A stretch of DNA of 64,000 nt, taken from contig JAGSHC010000001.1 of assembly GCA_023954745.1 (NCBI GenBank), forward strand, positions 78,356-142,355, given 5' to 3'. Below the pieces are notes generated by a model. That model ran no database searches, had not been told where the DNA came from, and worked only from the letters and a program-made list of their open reading frames with translations. Origin of the DNA: Deltaproteobacteria bacterium (lineage in GTDB: Bacteria; Myxococcota_A; UBA796; UBA9615). The position numbers and the translations under genes were made by a program. Below are positions 53,510 to 58,278 of this stretch, piece by piece (the stretch's first letter is position 1; every line of letters begins with the position of its first letter).

Positions 53510-54349
53510 CTAGCGGATCCCGCGACGTGCTCCGATGAGGGCGAACGCGCCGGCTCCGGCCGCGAGTGAGACGAGGAGCCACGGAGCCGTGGCGGGTTCG
53601 TCCCAACCCGCGAGGATGGTTGTGGCAGCGAGGCCGTTGTTCAAGACGTGCACGGCGACACAGGGGATCAAGCTCCCACTGCGCCAGCGAAGAACTCCAA
53701 GAAAGACTGCGAGAGGGAGCACGCCCACGGACTGGATGGGGTCGAAGTGCCACAGAGCGAAGATCAGGGAGGTGGTGATGATGGCCCCGACGGGGTGTGC
53801 GTCTCCGTCCATGACTCGCCAGAGGAACCCGCGGAACACCAGCTCTTCGAAGAGAGGTCCCACGAGCACGACCACCGCGGCGAACACGGCGCGCTCGACC
53901 ATGGGGCCGGTCCTCAACGACTCGGCGATCGCCGCGAGGTTGTCCAACGGGAGGCGCCATCCGAACGTGGAGCTGACCAGGTCCCACACGCCCGTCCCGA
54001 GGGCTTCGCCGACGACTCCGAGGAAGACCGCCCCCAAGGCGGCTCCGAGCCAGAGCGGCGCCCCCCAGCTCCCTCGGATCAGCCCCCAGGTCTCGCCAGG
54101 CGACCAGGTCTGCAGGCGCCGTGCGACCTCGGCGATCGCAAAGGCGCCGCCGGACATGCCCACCGCGCTCACCGCCAGGGCGAGGGGCGAGGCGAGTCCG
54201 TCCTCGCCGAAGAGCAACAGCAGCAGGGGGACCACCACCACCACGGTCCAGACGACGCACGTCACCACGTAGAGCAACGCGAAGCCCAAACGAGGACGGG
54301 GTAACGATTGGAGAGGCACGATGACTCCAGGAGGCTGTCTGGCGGCCAA
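53510..54349 (-). CDS. CPBP family intramembrane glutamic protease
   Basis: 279 residues with seven or eight predicted helices. CPBP (CAAX protease/bacteriocin-processing) motifs: GPLFEELVFRGFLW (Glu168, Glu169, Arg173), ALWHFDPIQ (His201) and VHVLNNG (His and Asn near 233-238). All three catalytic boxes are intact. Family members remove C-terminal or N-terminal tags within membranes; a branch called myxosortases is linked to processing of MYXO-CTERM proteins. Since three proteins in this window have such tails, this gene is a candidate for the processing enzyme. The start is tentative; TTG/ATG choices remain. Same strand as the kinase-ATPase gene, 48 bases upstream. Confidence 0.9.
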   Translation of the reverse strand: MAARQPPGVIVPLQSLPRPRLGFALLYVVTCVVWTVVVVVPLLLLLFGEDGLASPLALAVSAVGMSGGAFAIAEVARRLQTWSPGETWGLIRGSWGAPLWLGAALGAVFLGVVGEALGTGVWDLVSSTFGWRLPLDNLAAIAESLRTGPMVERAVFAAVVVLVGPLFEELVFRGFLWRVMDGDAHPVGAIITTSLIFALWHFDPIQSVGVLPLAVFLGVLRWRSGSLIPCVAVHVLNNGLAATTILAGWDEPATAPWLLVSLAAGAGAFALIGARRGIR

Positions 54350-54431: not shown

Positions 54432-55388
54432 GTGCATTCTGCCCTTCCCATTCCGTCTGCTCCATCTCGTCACCCCTTCGAAGGTGCGGCGGGGATCCTC
54501 GAGAGGGTGGGGAACACTCCGCTCGTGCGGCTCTGTCACGTGGCCGAGGGACTGCCCGACGACGTCGAGGTCTGGGCGAAGCTCGAGAGCGCGAATCCCG
54601 GGGGCTCCGTGAAGGACCGACCGGCCCTCGCCATCGTGTTGGACGCCATCCGTACGGGCCGGCTCAAGCGCGGTCAGCGGATCCTCGATGCGAGCTCGGG
54701 GAACACTGGGATCGCCTACGCGATGATCGGGGCGAACCTGGGCTTCGAGCTCACCCTGTGCCTGCCGAAGAATGCCAACGCGGAGCGAAAGCAGATCCTC
54801 TCGGCGTACGGGGTCGAAGTCGTCGAGACAGATCCGCTGGAGGGGAGTGACGGCGCGATCCGCAAGGCGCGCGAGCTCGCCGTGGACACCGAGCGCTACG
54901 CCTACCTCGACCAGTACAGCAACGACAACAACTGGCGGGCTCACTACGGGTCCACCGGGCCCGAGATCGTCGCCCAGACCGGCGGGGGCGTGACCCACTT
55001 CGTGGCCTCCCTGGGCACCAGCGGCACCTTCATGGGCACCACCCGCTTCCTCCGCCAGTGGAGCCCTGCGGTGAAGTGCTACTCGGTGCAGCCGGATTCC
55101 CCGTTCCATGGACTCGAGGGCCTCAAGCACATGGAGACCTCCATCGTGCCGCCCATCTACGACGACACCCTGGCCGATGGAAACATCGAGGCGCCCACCG
55201 AAGAGTCGTTCGAGCTGGTGCGTGATCTCGCCCGCTACGACGGAATTCTCGTCGGTCCCTCCTGCGGCGCAGCATGCTGGGCTGCTCTCCAGGTGGCGCG
55301 CACACTGGAGAGCGGAGTCGTCGTGACGGTGTTTCCCGACAGCGGCGAGCGCTACCTCAGCGAGTCCCACCTCTGGAACGCCCCATGA
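54432..55388 (+). CDS. cysM: Cysteine synthase, CysM/CysK family
   Basis: 318 residues from GTG at 54432. Fold-type II PLP enzyme: GNTPLVRL, PLP Lys61 in NPGGSVKDRPA, the phosphate loop SSGNTGIAYA, GTSGTFMGTTR and VGPSCGAACW. The gene is coupled to a JAMM protease, a sulfur carrier and an E1-rhodanese, the set used by actinobacterial CysM, which takes sulfur from a protein thiocarboxylate instead of sulfide and O-phosphoserine instead of O-acetylserine. The donor and acceptor here are inferred from this context. The TGA overlaps the next ATG (ATGA). Confidence 0.92.
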   Translation: MHSALPIPSAPSRHPFEGAAGILERVGNTPLVRLCHVAEGLPDDVEVWAKLESANPGGSVKDRPALAIVLDAIRTGRLKRGQRILDASSGNTGIAYAMIGANLGFELTLCLPKNANAERKQILSAYGVEVVETDPLEGSDGAIRKARELAVDTERYAYLDQYSNDNNWRAHYGSTGPEIVAQTGGGVTHFVASLGTSGTFMGTTRFLRQWSPAVKCYSVQPDSPFHGLEGLKHMETSIVPPIYDDTLADGNIEAPTEESFELVRDLARYDGILVGPSCGAACWAALQVARTLESGVVVTVFPDSGERYLSESHLWNAP

Positions 55389-55801
55389 CCTTGCACATCA
55401 TCCCCGAGCAGCTCGCGATGCTTCATCAGCACGCCGAAGAGGGCTTTCCCCACGAGGTGGTAGGCATCCTCGCCGGTTCGCGGGAGGACTGGAGCGTCAC
55501 CGAAGTCGTGCCGCTCACCAACGAGCGAGCTGACTCCGCGCACAATCGCTACAAGGTCTCGGGCCTGTTGTTGATGCGCGCCGAGCAGGAGCTCGAGTCC
55601 CGCGGCCTCGAGGTCGTCGGCTACTACCATTCCCACCCTGACCACCCCTCGCAGTACAGCGACTACGACCGCGACCACGCCCTGCCGAACATGAGCTACG
55701 TCATTGTTTCGGTGATGAGCGGGCGGGCCGCGACCACCCAGAGCTGGCGGCTGACCGACGACCGGTCCCGCATGGACGAAGAAGAGCTCCACTCCCTCTG
55801 A
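55385..55801 (+). CDS. mec: JAMM/MPN+ metalloprotease, Mec-like
   Basis: 138 residues. The JAMM zinc site is complete: Glu24 (PHEVVGILAG), His82 and His84 (YYHSHPDHPS), Ser92 and Asp95 (YSDYD), that is HxH(x7)S(x2)D. Mycobacterial Mec frees cysteine from the CysO-Cys adduct; the related QbsD trims two residues to expose the carrier's GG. Because the carrier downstream ends GGAR, this protease may do both jobs here. Stop-start overlap with cysM (ATGA) and 27 bases before the carrier gene. Confidence 0.9.
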   Translation: MTLHIIPEQLAMLHQHAEEGFPHEVVGILAGSREDWSVTEVVPLTNERADSAHNRYKVSGLLLMRAEQELESRGLEVVGYYHSHPDHPSQYSDYDRDHALPNMSYVIVSVMSGRAATTQSWRLTDDRSRMDEEELHSL

Positions 55802-55828
55802 TCAGAGGGTCGAGCTACAGGAGAGACC

Positions 55829-56110
55829 ATGAGCGTGTCCGTGATGATTCCCACCGCCCTGCGTTCCTACGCAGAGGGCAACGCGTCCATCACCTGTTCC
55901 GGGTCGACCGTGGGCGAGGCGCTGGCCTCTCTGACGGAGCAGCACCCCGGTCTCGCGAAGCACCTCCGTACGGCGGACGGGAAGCTGCGCAGCTTCGTCA
56001 ACGTCTACCTGGGTGAAGAAGACATCCGGTACATGGACGGCGAGGCCACCCCCGTCGCCGAGGGCGCGACGCTGACCATCGTGCCCTCCATCGCTGGAGG
56101 AGCCCGATGA
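55829..56110 (+). CDS. cysO: CysO/MoaD-like ubiquitin-fold sulfur carrier with GG-Ala-Arg tail
   Basis: 93 residues, beta-grasp fold (VMIPTALRSYAEG, STVGEALASL, FVNVYLGEEDIRYMDG, TLTIVPSIAGG). MoaD/CysO carriers normally end in Gly-Gly, whose carboxylate is adenylated and thiocarboxylated; this one has two more residues, Ala-Arg. The tail must be cut before activation, presumably by the neighbouring JAMM protease, as known for QbsE/QbsD. The DNA of the last four codons is ggaggagcccga followed by TGA, which also supplies the Shine-Dalgarno and start of the next gene. In its place in this operon the CysO role is more likely than MoaD. Confidence 0.88.
   Translation: MSVSVMIPTALRSYAEGNASITCSGSTVGEALASLTEQHPGLAKHLRTADGKLRSFVNVYLGEEDIRYMDGEATPVAEGATLTIVPSIAGGAR
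56096..56109 (+). promoter_or_regulatory. Ribosome-binding site embedded in the carrier's Gly-Gly codons
   Basis: GGAGGAG (56096-56102) encodes the two Gly of the carrier and begins its Ala codon, and sits four bases before ATG 56107 of the E1 gene, which overlaps the carrier's TGA (ATGA). It is the strongest Shine-Dalgarno of the cluster. Confidence 0.8.
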
Positions 56111-57300
56111 ACGCCCCCAAGACCGAGCTCCCGGAGCTCAACAACGAAGAGATCGGCCGCTATTCGCGCCACCTCATTCTCCCCAACGTGGGCATGGAGG
56201 GGCAGCGCAAGCTCAAGGGTGCCTCGGTGCTCTGCGTGGGCACCGGGGGGCTCGGCTCACCGCTGGCGCTCTACCTCGCGGCGGCTGGAGTGGGTCGCAT
56301 CGGGCTCGTGGACTTCGACGTCGTCGACGCCAGCAACCTGCAGCGGCAGATCATCCACGGCACCTCCTGGGTCGGGAAGAGTAAGGTGGAGAGCGCCAAG
56401 GCGCGGATCGCCGACCTCAACCCCAACGTGCAGGTGGACGTCTACGAGGAGCCACTGACGTCGGACAACGCCCTGGCGATCGTGGAGCCCTACGACGTCA
56501 TCGTCGACGGCACCGACAACTTCCCCACGCGGTACCTCGTCAACGACGCGTGCGTGCTGCTCGGCAAGCCCAACGTGTACGGCTCGATCTTCCGCTTCGA
56601 GGGCCAGGCATCGGTGTTCAACCACGAGGGCGGGCCCTGCTACCGCTGCCTCTATGAGGAGCCGCCGCCTCCAGGCCTCGTGCCCAGCTGCGCCGAAGGC
56701 GGCGTGCTCGGGATCCTCCCCGGCATCATCGGGGTGATCCAGGCCACGGAGATCGTGAAGATCATCCTCGGCGTGGGCGAGACCCTGTCCGGTCGCTTGA
56801 TGCTCTACGACGCCCTGGGGATGAACTTCCGTCAGCTCAAGCTGCGCAAGAACCCCAAGTGTGTGATCTGCGGCCCGAACCCGACCGTCACCGAGCTCAT
56901 CGACTACAACCAGTTCTGCGGTGTGCCGAGCATGGACGAGGGCGCACGTCCCACGGACGTCTCCCAGACCGACGAGGGGTTCGCCCGGCTGTCCGTGAAG
57001 GACATCAAGGCGAAGCTGGATGCCGGTTGGGCGCCCTTCGTGCTCGACGTGCGCAAGCCGCACGAGGCGGACATCGTGAAGCTCGACTTCGCGGACCTCC
57101 TGGTGGCCCACGAGGACGTGGCCGCGCACCTGGCGGAGATCCCGAAGGACCGTGACATCCTCGTGCACTGCAAGATGGGTGGACGCTCGGCGAAGGCCAG
57201 CAAGGTGCTCGCGGACGCTGGCTACGGCAGCGTGACCAACATGGAGGGCGGCATCACGGGGTGGGCGAACGAGATCGACCCCAGCCTGCCCACGTACTGA
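56107..57300 (+). CDS. moeZ: MoeZ-like adenylyltransferase-sulfurtransferase (E1 plus rhodanese)
   Basis: 397 residues. ThiF/MoeB domain 1-265: ATP site CVGTGGLGSPLALYL, DFDVVDASNLQRQ, VDGTDNFPTRYLVND, Zn Cys pairs 178/181 (PCYRCLY) and 252/255 (KCVICG), and active-region Cys195 (PSCAEGGVLG). The rhodanese domain 295-397 has active Cys356 (VHCKMGGRSAKA). It adenylates the carrier C-terminus and then transfers persulfide sulfur to give the thiocarboxylate. MoeZ does this for CysO in mycobacteria. Start fixed by the embedded Shine-Dalgarno. Last gene of the coupled cysM-mec-cysO-moeZ run. Confidence 0.94.
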   Translation: MNAPKTELPELNNEEIGRYSRHLILPNVGMEGQRKLKGASVLCVGTGGLGSPLALYLAAAGVGRIGLVDFDVVDASNLQRQIIHGTSWVGKSKVESAKARIADLNPNVQVDVYEEPLTSDNALAIVEPYDVIVDGTDNFPTRYLVNDACVLLGKPNVYGSIFRFEGQASVFNHEGGPCYRCLYEEPPPPGLVPSCAEGGVLGILPGIIGVIQATEIVKIILGVGETLSGRLMLYDALGMNFRQLKLRKNPKCVICGPNPTVTELIDYNQFCGVPSMDEGARPTDVSQTDEGFARLSVKDIKAKLDAGWAPFVLDVRKPHEADIVKLDFADLLVAHEDVAAHLAEIPKDRDILVHCKMGGRSAKASKVLADAGYGSVTNMEGGITGWANEIDPSLPTY

Positions 57301-57360: not shown

Positions 57361-58278
57361 ATGTCTGTTCGCTCTGACTTCATCTGGTTCGACGGTGACT
57401 TCGTCCCCTATGACGACGCCACGGTCCACGTGCTCTCCCACACGCTCCACTACGGCCTGGGAGTCTTCGAGGGCATTCGCGCCTACGAGCAGCCGGACGG
57501 TACTGCAGGGATCTGGCGACTCGAGCCCCACCTGAAGCGGTTCCTCGACTCCCTCAAGATGATGCGCTGGGAGTGTGGCTACACCCACGACCAGCTCCGG
57601 GACGCCTGCCTCTCCACGCTGCAGCGCAACGGCTTCACCTCGGCCTACCTGCGACCGATCGCGTTTCTCGGGCACGGCGAGATGGGTCTGGGAGCCCGCG
57701 GCAACAAGCTGCACACCGTGGTCGCTTCATGGAAGTGGGGCGCGTACCTCGGCGCCGAAGGCATGGAGCGCGGCGTGCGGCTCCAGACCAGCTCCTTCAC
57801 TCGGCATCACCCCAATGCAGCGCTGCAGCGCGCGAAGGTCGTCGGTCACTACGTGAACTCGATCCTCGCCCGCTACGAGGCCAACGAGAACGGCTTCGAC
57901 GAGGCGCTGATGCTCGACGGCCACGGGATGGTCGCCGAGGGCACCGGCGAGAACGTGTTCGTCGTGCACGACGGGGTCGTGAGCACGCCGATGGTGACCA
58001 ACATCCTCCCGGGCATCACCCGGGACTCGGTGATGGACATCTGCAAGCACGAAGGCATCGAGGTCCGAGAGACCACCTTCGGGCGCGACGCGTTCTACAC
58101 CGCCGATGAGGCCTTCATGTGCGGCTCAGCCGCCGAGGTGACGCCGGTGCGCGAGCTCGACCGTCGCCAGATCGGCAGCGGCTCCCGCGGCCCGATCACC
58201 GAGCGGATCCAGAGCATCTACCTCGACGCGGTACGCGGTCGAGTGGACTGGATGAAGGACGACATCACCACCGCGTAG
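57361..58278 (+). CDS. ilvE: Branched-chain amino-acid aminotransferase
   Basis: 305 residues, fold-type IV PLP enzyme. PLP Lys159 (QRAKVVGHYVNS) matches E. coli IlvE Lys160. Also HTLHYGLGVFEGIRAY, YLRPIAFLG, LQTSSFTRHHPNAAL, DEALMLDGHGMVAEGTGENVF and MCGSAAEVTPV. It interconverts Leu/Ile/Val and their 2-oxo acids with glutamate. It lies 60 bases after moeZ and may share its transcript, but no overlap links it. Convergent with the receptor gene 32 bases away. Confidence 0.95.
   Translation: MSVRSDFIWFDGDFVPYDDATVHVLSHTLHYGLGVFEGIRAYEQPDGTAGIWRLEPHLKRFLDSLKMMRWECGYTHDQLRDACLSTLQRNGFTSAYLRPIAFLGHGEMGLGARGNKLHTVVASWKWGAYLGAEGMERGVRLQTSSFTRHHPNAALQRAKVVGHYVNSILARYEANENGFDEALMLDGHGMVAEGTGENVFVVHDGVVSTPMVTNILPGITRDSVMDICKHEGIEVRETTFGRDAFYTADEAFMCGSAAEVTPVRELDRRQIGSGSRGPITERIQSIYLDAVRGRVDWMKDDITTA

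Follow-up and report, generated by a model that had tools for sequence, protein, structure and literature searches.

Why does a sulfur carrier protein end two residues beyond its Gly-Gly (GG) motif, and what would remove them? The question is raised by a four-gene operon (positions 54432-57300, forward strand) in a 64,000-nucleotide stretch of the Deltaproteobacteria bacterium contig JAGSHC010000001.1, hereafter the window. Its four open reading frames (ORFs) encode a CysM-like cysteine synthase, a JAMM protease, a CysO-like carrier, and an E1 activating enzyme with a rhodanese domain. The original prediction, drawn from the DNA letters, placed these genes in a protein-thiocarboxylate route to cysteine in which one JAMM enzyme would both expose the GG and later release cysteine from the carrier. 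Here, the operon was compared with more than 200 related loci. A cut after the GG is very likely, because the sequence beyond it varies in both length and composition and because fusions of the carrier to its own E1 recur; the adjacent JAMM would be the obvious protease for that cut. The complete pathway, in which the GG-Ala-Arg precursor is trimmed and the carrier-bound cysteine is released by the same JAMM, we consider probable.

Residues beyond Gly-Gly and the adjacent JAMM

The window carrier ends in TLTIVPSIAGGAR, that is, IVPSIAGG, with the GG at residues 90-91, followed by Ala92-Arg93. Residues past the GG were found in 47 of the 49 carriers from relatives in the same phylum, the other two stopping at GG, while the ThiS and MoaD proteins of related genomes, used as a control, stopped exactly at GG in 29 of 31 cases, both exceptions being fusions (Fisher P = 4e-17, uncorrected for kinship). 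Tails among the 49 relatives were hypervariable, with examples such as AR, WLA, AL, LRAR, R, N, V, ARV, FR, CRLDGAFL, and LPVSGPSGSNR, and in some cases the E1 took the place of a tail. Sequencing or frame error was rejected as their origin, with IVPSIAGG plus a tail being common to dozens of independent genomes. A JAMM gene was present in the same stretch in 46 of the 49, and cysteine synthase adjoined the carrier in most relatives.

One of the two control exceptions, L001, was confirmed as a MoaD-MoaE fusion. It comes from the source genome itself (G000:C398, L001:169-1743), where a single ORF carries a MoaD (ThiS), a MoaE, and a TrmB-type methyltransferase domain. A GGG lies inside this ORF at the end of MoaD, and this second carrier, judging by its sequence, seems to need cutting too.

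Two further sets of loci showed the same tendency. Among 80 named relatives (Acidobacteria, Chloroflexi, Gemmatimonadota, Bacteroidetes, Actinobacteria, and others; some genomes are shared with the first set, L104 = G021, L105 = G005, and L135 = G067), 36 carriers were fused, 35 were tailed, and 9 ended at GG, so that 71 of 80 had residues past the GG. Carriers were tailed or fused in 61 of the 63 named relatives with a JAMM in the locus vs 10 of the 17 without one. The 89 Terriglobia loci, picked mainly as unfused, comprised 86 tailed carriers, 1 fused, and 2 ending at GG, with a JAMM in every locus (89/89).

Fusions provided the second line of evidence. Single chains of the form carrier-GG-linker-E1-rhodanese (ThiS + ThiF + Rhodanese) accounted for 45 of 104 loci on an E1 tree; the linkers, where measured, spanned 11-47 residues. 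On this tree, a quick one with some long branches that was made without the carrier part, the fused or separate state changed at least 21 times, at least 8 of these being forced by well-supported branches. In an AlphaFold2 (AF2) model of one fusion, residues 86-97, which span the GG junction, had a predicted local distance difference test score (pLDDT) below 50, and the junction is thus likely flexible and accessible to a protease. By the chemistry of CysO activation, a fused carrier could not present its glycine carboxylate, and a cut after the GG would be needed for function (PMC3227635). There is precedent for such cuts: in a linear fusion of SAMP1 to MoaE, HvJAMM1 cleaves precisely behind the glycine of the GG (PMC4443979), and Mycobacterium tuberculosis MoaX requires cleavage after its GG (PMC4326299).

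The window JAMM has a complete zinc and catalytic set (E24, H82, S83, H84, S92, and D95). Across 31 aligned JAMMs, H82, S83, H84, S92, and D95 were invariant and E24 was conserved in at least 90%. Its AF2 model (mean pLDDT 94) matched a Salinibacter structure (2kcq) and the Pyrococcus furiosus JAMM1-SAMP2 complex (5lda), in which SAMP2 is ubiquitin-like.

The operon, its proposed pathway, and competing readings

ORFs and family searches confirmed the four genes, coordinates, residue numbers, and identities originally given (Table 1). The best NCBIfam match of the first gene was TIGR01138 cysM (5.9e-107), and its structure search placed Escherichia coli CysM on top, with M. tuberculosis CysM (3dwg_A) at 1.1e-54. 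The JAMM matched the desampylase family NF041370 (2.6e-22) and the carrier matched SAMP1 (1.4e-15); all three NCBIfam matches fall under the curated cut-offs. The best PDB match of the carrier was M. tuberculosis CysO (3dwg_C, 1.2e-19), covering residues 1-91, and the 3dwg_C chain ends at GG. The E1-rhodanese protein matched PRK07411 MoeB at 2.7e-175. The cysM and JAMM genes overlap by 4 nucleotides, and a gap of 27 nucleotides separates the JAMM gene from the carrier gene.

Table 1. Features of the cysteine operon, in positions of the window
Feature	Position	Strand	Basis
cysM-like pyridoxal phosphate-dependent cysteine synthase, 318 residues, GTG start	54432-55388	+	PALP 5e-66
JAMM/MPN+ metalloprotease, Mec/QbsD/HcyD-like, 138 residues	55385-55801	+	Prok-JAB 9.3e-21
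Ubiquitin-fold sulfur carrier, CysO-like, 93 residues	55829-56110	+	ThiS 5.9e-11
Gly-Gly codons GGAGGA, also Shine-Dalgarno-like GGAGG	56096-56101	+	sequence; putative ribosome-binding role
Disposable C-terminal tail Ala92-Arg93, predicted JAMM-removed piece	56102-56107	+	comparison with relatives
ATGA, carrier stop overlapping E1 start, 4 nucleotides	56107-56110	+	sequence
MoeZ-like E1 adenylyltransferase with C-terminal rhodanese domain, 397 residues	56107-57300	+	ThiF 3.7e-84, rhodanese 2.3e-9

Two genes flank the operon. A class IV aminotransferase gene (57361-58278) lies on the same strand, 60 nucleotides past the E1 stop, and may be cotranscribed; a CAAX-type (Rce1-like) protease gene (53510-54349, reverse strand) is divergent from cysM.

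In the pathway that we propose, the carrier would be synthesized as a precursor ending in GG-Ala-Arg, and the JAMM would cut after Gly91 to free the GG end. The E1-rhodanese protein would then adenylate and subsequently sulfurate Gly91, and CysM would join the resulting thiocarboxylate to a serine in activated form (probably O-phosphoserine), giving carrier-Cys. The same JAMM would finally cleave the carrier-cysteine bond, yielding cysteine and a regenerated carrier. The genome context bears on the acceptor. The source genome (G000; 7.13 Mb in 481 contigs) had no serine acetyltransferase (CysE) above the TIGR01172 curated cut-off, and its sole other close PALP enzyme is a cystathionine beta-synthase (G000:C476, L379) that adjoins a cystathionine gamma-synthase/lyase-type gene. 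These two results favour an O-phosphoserine acceptor, the one used in M. tuberculosis, and make the window CysM likely to be the cysteine synthase. Four carriers elsewhere in the comparison (L075, L076, L136, and L183) end in GG-Cys-stop, which amounts to the carrier-cysteine adduct being encoded by the gene itself.

Several observations weigh against assigning both cuts to this one JAMM. The source genome encodes two further JAMM-family proteins, so another protease could trim the carrier. Carriers ending at GG with a JAMM nearby also occur (L078, L079, L181, L182, L258, L284, and M. tuberculosis CysO), a combination that the original prediction had counted against itself. Such tail-less carriers imply that a JAMM permits a tail and does not require one, and a strict tie between the two was rejected. 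Tailed carriers were found without a JAMM in the locus (L008, L016, L124, and L148), with a JAMM elsewhere in those genomes, and for one fused carrier, on a short contig (L119), the whole genome gave no more than a marginal match to JAMM. The apparent lack of a JAMM in some relatives was resolved, with a Prok-JAB gene about 1 kb off or elsewhere in nearly all such genomes. Among the 22 genomes checked, L163 was the sole one without any JAMM match, and its carrier is tail-less.

The extra JAMM-family ORFs and the few tailed carriers without a JAMM in the locus would suit an arrangement in which the JAMM only frees cysteine from carrier-Cys and another peptidase or carboxypeptidase takes off the tail, as would M. 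tuberculosis Mec, which serves a carrier needing no trimming (PMC3227635). We nevertheless hold this division of labour to be unlikely, since JAMM genes adjoin nearly all tailed or fused carriers, and since the fusions need an endopeptidase cut after the GG, which is known for JAMM (PMC4443979) and to which a carboxypeptidase is ill-suited. The matches of carrier and JAMM to archaeal SAMP1 and desampylase families could instead indicate a ubiquitin-like conjugation system, with the JAMM as deconjugase and cysteine synthesis secondary, and the survey by Iyer et al. predicted conjugation for operons with E1 and JAB genes (PMC1779556). This is quite improbable here: cysteine synthase is the first gene of the window operon and is adjacent in most relatives, the E1 bears a rhodanese domain, the nearest carrier structure is CysO from a CysO-CysM complex, and no E2-like gene was apparent in the segment in the ORF list or domain scan.

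Gene content, tails, and fusions support a cysteine route of the CysO/CysM/Mec type whose carrier needs a cut after the GG, and the one adjacent JAMM holds up as a candidate for both cuts. The locus makes the role of a bacterial JAMM in sulfur transfer directly testable, with natural fused and tailed carriers as ready-made substrates, and the many natural GG-X sequences would reveal what a JAMM tolerates past the cut.

Possible uses of the carrier tail

If the end is discarded, the sequence past the GG would be nearly free of protein-level selection. In the window, this stretch looks like a spacer for translational coupling between the carrier stop and the E1 start. Of the 32 unfused relatives that have an E1 gene, 28 showed an overlap of carrier stop and E1 start (NTGA or TGATG), and most unfused tails were 1-3 residues long, a length set by this overlap. 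The GGAGG within the window Gly-Gly codons sits 6 nucleotides ahead of the E1 ATG, and the first Gly codon of the GG was GGA in 8 of 32 relatives, vs 252 of 3,073 Gly codons in cysM and E1 (P = 0.004). From the nucleotide sequence, the Gly-Gly codons may therefore double as the E1 ribosome-binding site, with Ala-Arg as the spacer. The same overlap and short tails would also fit Ala-Arg being a neutral leftover, with an E1 that works on the untrimmed carrier and no need of a protease, but this is scarcely credible, because fusion to an enzyme of about 400 residues cannot be a neutral remnant, ThiS of related genomes retains its exact GG end, and MoeB/MoeZ adenylate the C-terminal glycine (PMC3227635), which a tail would block.

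Terriglobia tails were of another kind. They were rich in Cys (91 of 675 residues; Cys in 46 of 88 tails), and tails without the RCICS-type motif still had 35 Cys in 445 residues. CxCx-stop ends, mostly RCICS, closed 25 of the 88 tails (L210, L214-L227, L230, L233, L234, L236, L242, L249, L252, L256, L273, and L298), and the stop was TAG in all 25. Nearly all of these had CCTGG directly 3' of the TAG and a conserved stem that begins at the stop codon, with closing pairs CCTGGG...CCCGGGC and an inner hairpin of variable sequence. A covariance model of this element (R1; its training set took in L302/L340, L304, and L307, and not L321, L332, L335, L338, or L339) found matches in 28 of 250 Terriglobia genomes at 1-2 copies each, a number at which a dispersed repeat was rejected. 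The carrier-linked copies were all in the carrier reading frame (27/27), which weakens the case for a translation-independent RNA element, though these copies share ancestry. The element had no Rfam family at gathering score and does not occur in the window.

The remaining copies found (8/8) close short ORFs such as MRCICR or MRCICS. In seven loci (L307, L321, L332, L335, L338, L339, and L340) cysK lies directly downstream of the short ORF, and in L304 a leader ORF ending in MRCICS, located downstream of moeZ, is followed by a second ThiS-like carrier and cysK. Three of the cysK genes were scanned, and each scored above the TIGR01139 cut-off. In L321 (844-2432), a JAMM gene is followed by the leader ORF MPVKVITPTSSIAGSTVLRCICT and then by cysK; the leader, MPVKVITPT-SSIAGSTVLRCICT, appears to consist of the start and the end of a carrier gene that has lost its middle.

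Because all of the non-carrier copies found precede cysK, in one case with a second carrier in between, the pattern suggests that RCICS tails are a cysteine leader peptide, a candidate attenuator, inside the discarded tail. Hallmarks of an attenuator are present: Cys codons by the stop, a conserved RNA structure, and a position upstream of cysteine genes. No U-run was seen 3' of the stem, leaving Rho-dependent or translational modes as candidates. Cysteine leader peptides have been described both in Actinobacteria (PMC1262725) and, ahead of cysS, in Rhodobacterales (PMC8632094); in a limited literature search, no earlier account turned up of a functional pathway protein whose removable tail is a leader peptide.

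More generally, since trimming by the JAMM would make everything past the GG disposable, the carrier C terminus could be a free zone that has been reused as a coupling spacer (the window), as a whole E1 (the polyproteins), or, in a subset of Terriglobia, as a cysteine attenuator leader, a generalization to which we give about even chances. If it is true, the Terriglobia carrier gene would sense cysteinyl-tRNA and set the expression of the activating enzyme, with the sensing peptide being removed by the pathway's own protease. Leader-tails would then connect the sensing of cysteine with a part of the carrier that proteolysis discards, and the element would add a candidate cysteine-responsive RNA in Acidobacteriota.

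Relation to known systems

The merged one-JAMM scheme is a variant of known systems, not a new kind, because the operon was listed in 2006, as described below, and a Wolinella enzyme is said to perform both cuts. In the thioquinolobactin system, the JAMM protein QbsD takes two residues off past the GG of QbsE. That pair serves siderophore synthesis and comes without a cysteine synthase or release of an amino acid, whereas the window operon has cysM. In Wolinella, according to what Krishnamoorthy and Begley reportedly described in 2011, the JAMM HcyD trims a C-terminal Ala off HcyS and later releases homocysteine. The HcyS/HcyD/HcyF/MetY system is thus said to differ in product and partner, namely homocysteine and MetY rather than cysteine and CysM. 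In M. tuberculosis, unlike in the window operon, moeZ (Rv3206c) is separated from cysO-cysM (Rv1335-Rv1336). Gene order differs, and M. tuberculosis CysO ends at GG and undergoes no trimming, whereas the window carrier has Ala-Arg. The CysO/CysM/Mec/MoeZ system nonetheless shares with the window all four protein types and the GG; its activation by an E1-rhodanese protein and its release by a JAMM, Mec hydrolyzing CysO-cysteine, correspond to steps proposed for the window (PMC3227635).

The original prediction had described a merged form of two known schemes outside Actinobacteria. As an operon outside that phylum it is not new: row 4c of Table 1 in Iyer et al. (2006) lists an operon of ThiS/MoaD, JAB, E1-rhodanese, and cysteine synthase, the exact gene set of the window, in proteobacteria, Acidobacteria, Rubrobacter, Salinibacter, and Chloroflexus (PMC1779556). 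That survey also describes the E1-like protein of Wolinella-type operons as lacking the rhodanese domain that the window E1 has, and it foresaw JAB domains releasing fused carriers (PMC1779556). In the accessible part of the survey, no mention was found of tails, of fusions between carrier and E1-rhodanese, or of leader-like tails (PMC1779556). The trimming route that the original prediction described is partly supported, and to it are added the hypervariable tail, its frequent replacement by E1, and the possible coupling-spacer role, all of which it had overlooked.

A parallel to the fusions is found in MoaX and other MoaD-MoaE fusions and in the HvJAMM1 substrate SAMP1-MoaE, where cleavage after the GG separates a ubiquitin-fold carrier from the enzyme to which it is fused (PMC4326299, PMC4443979). 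In those proteins the partner is MoaE and the pathway is molybdopterin synthesis, whereas in the relatives compared here the partner is the carrier's own E1.

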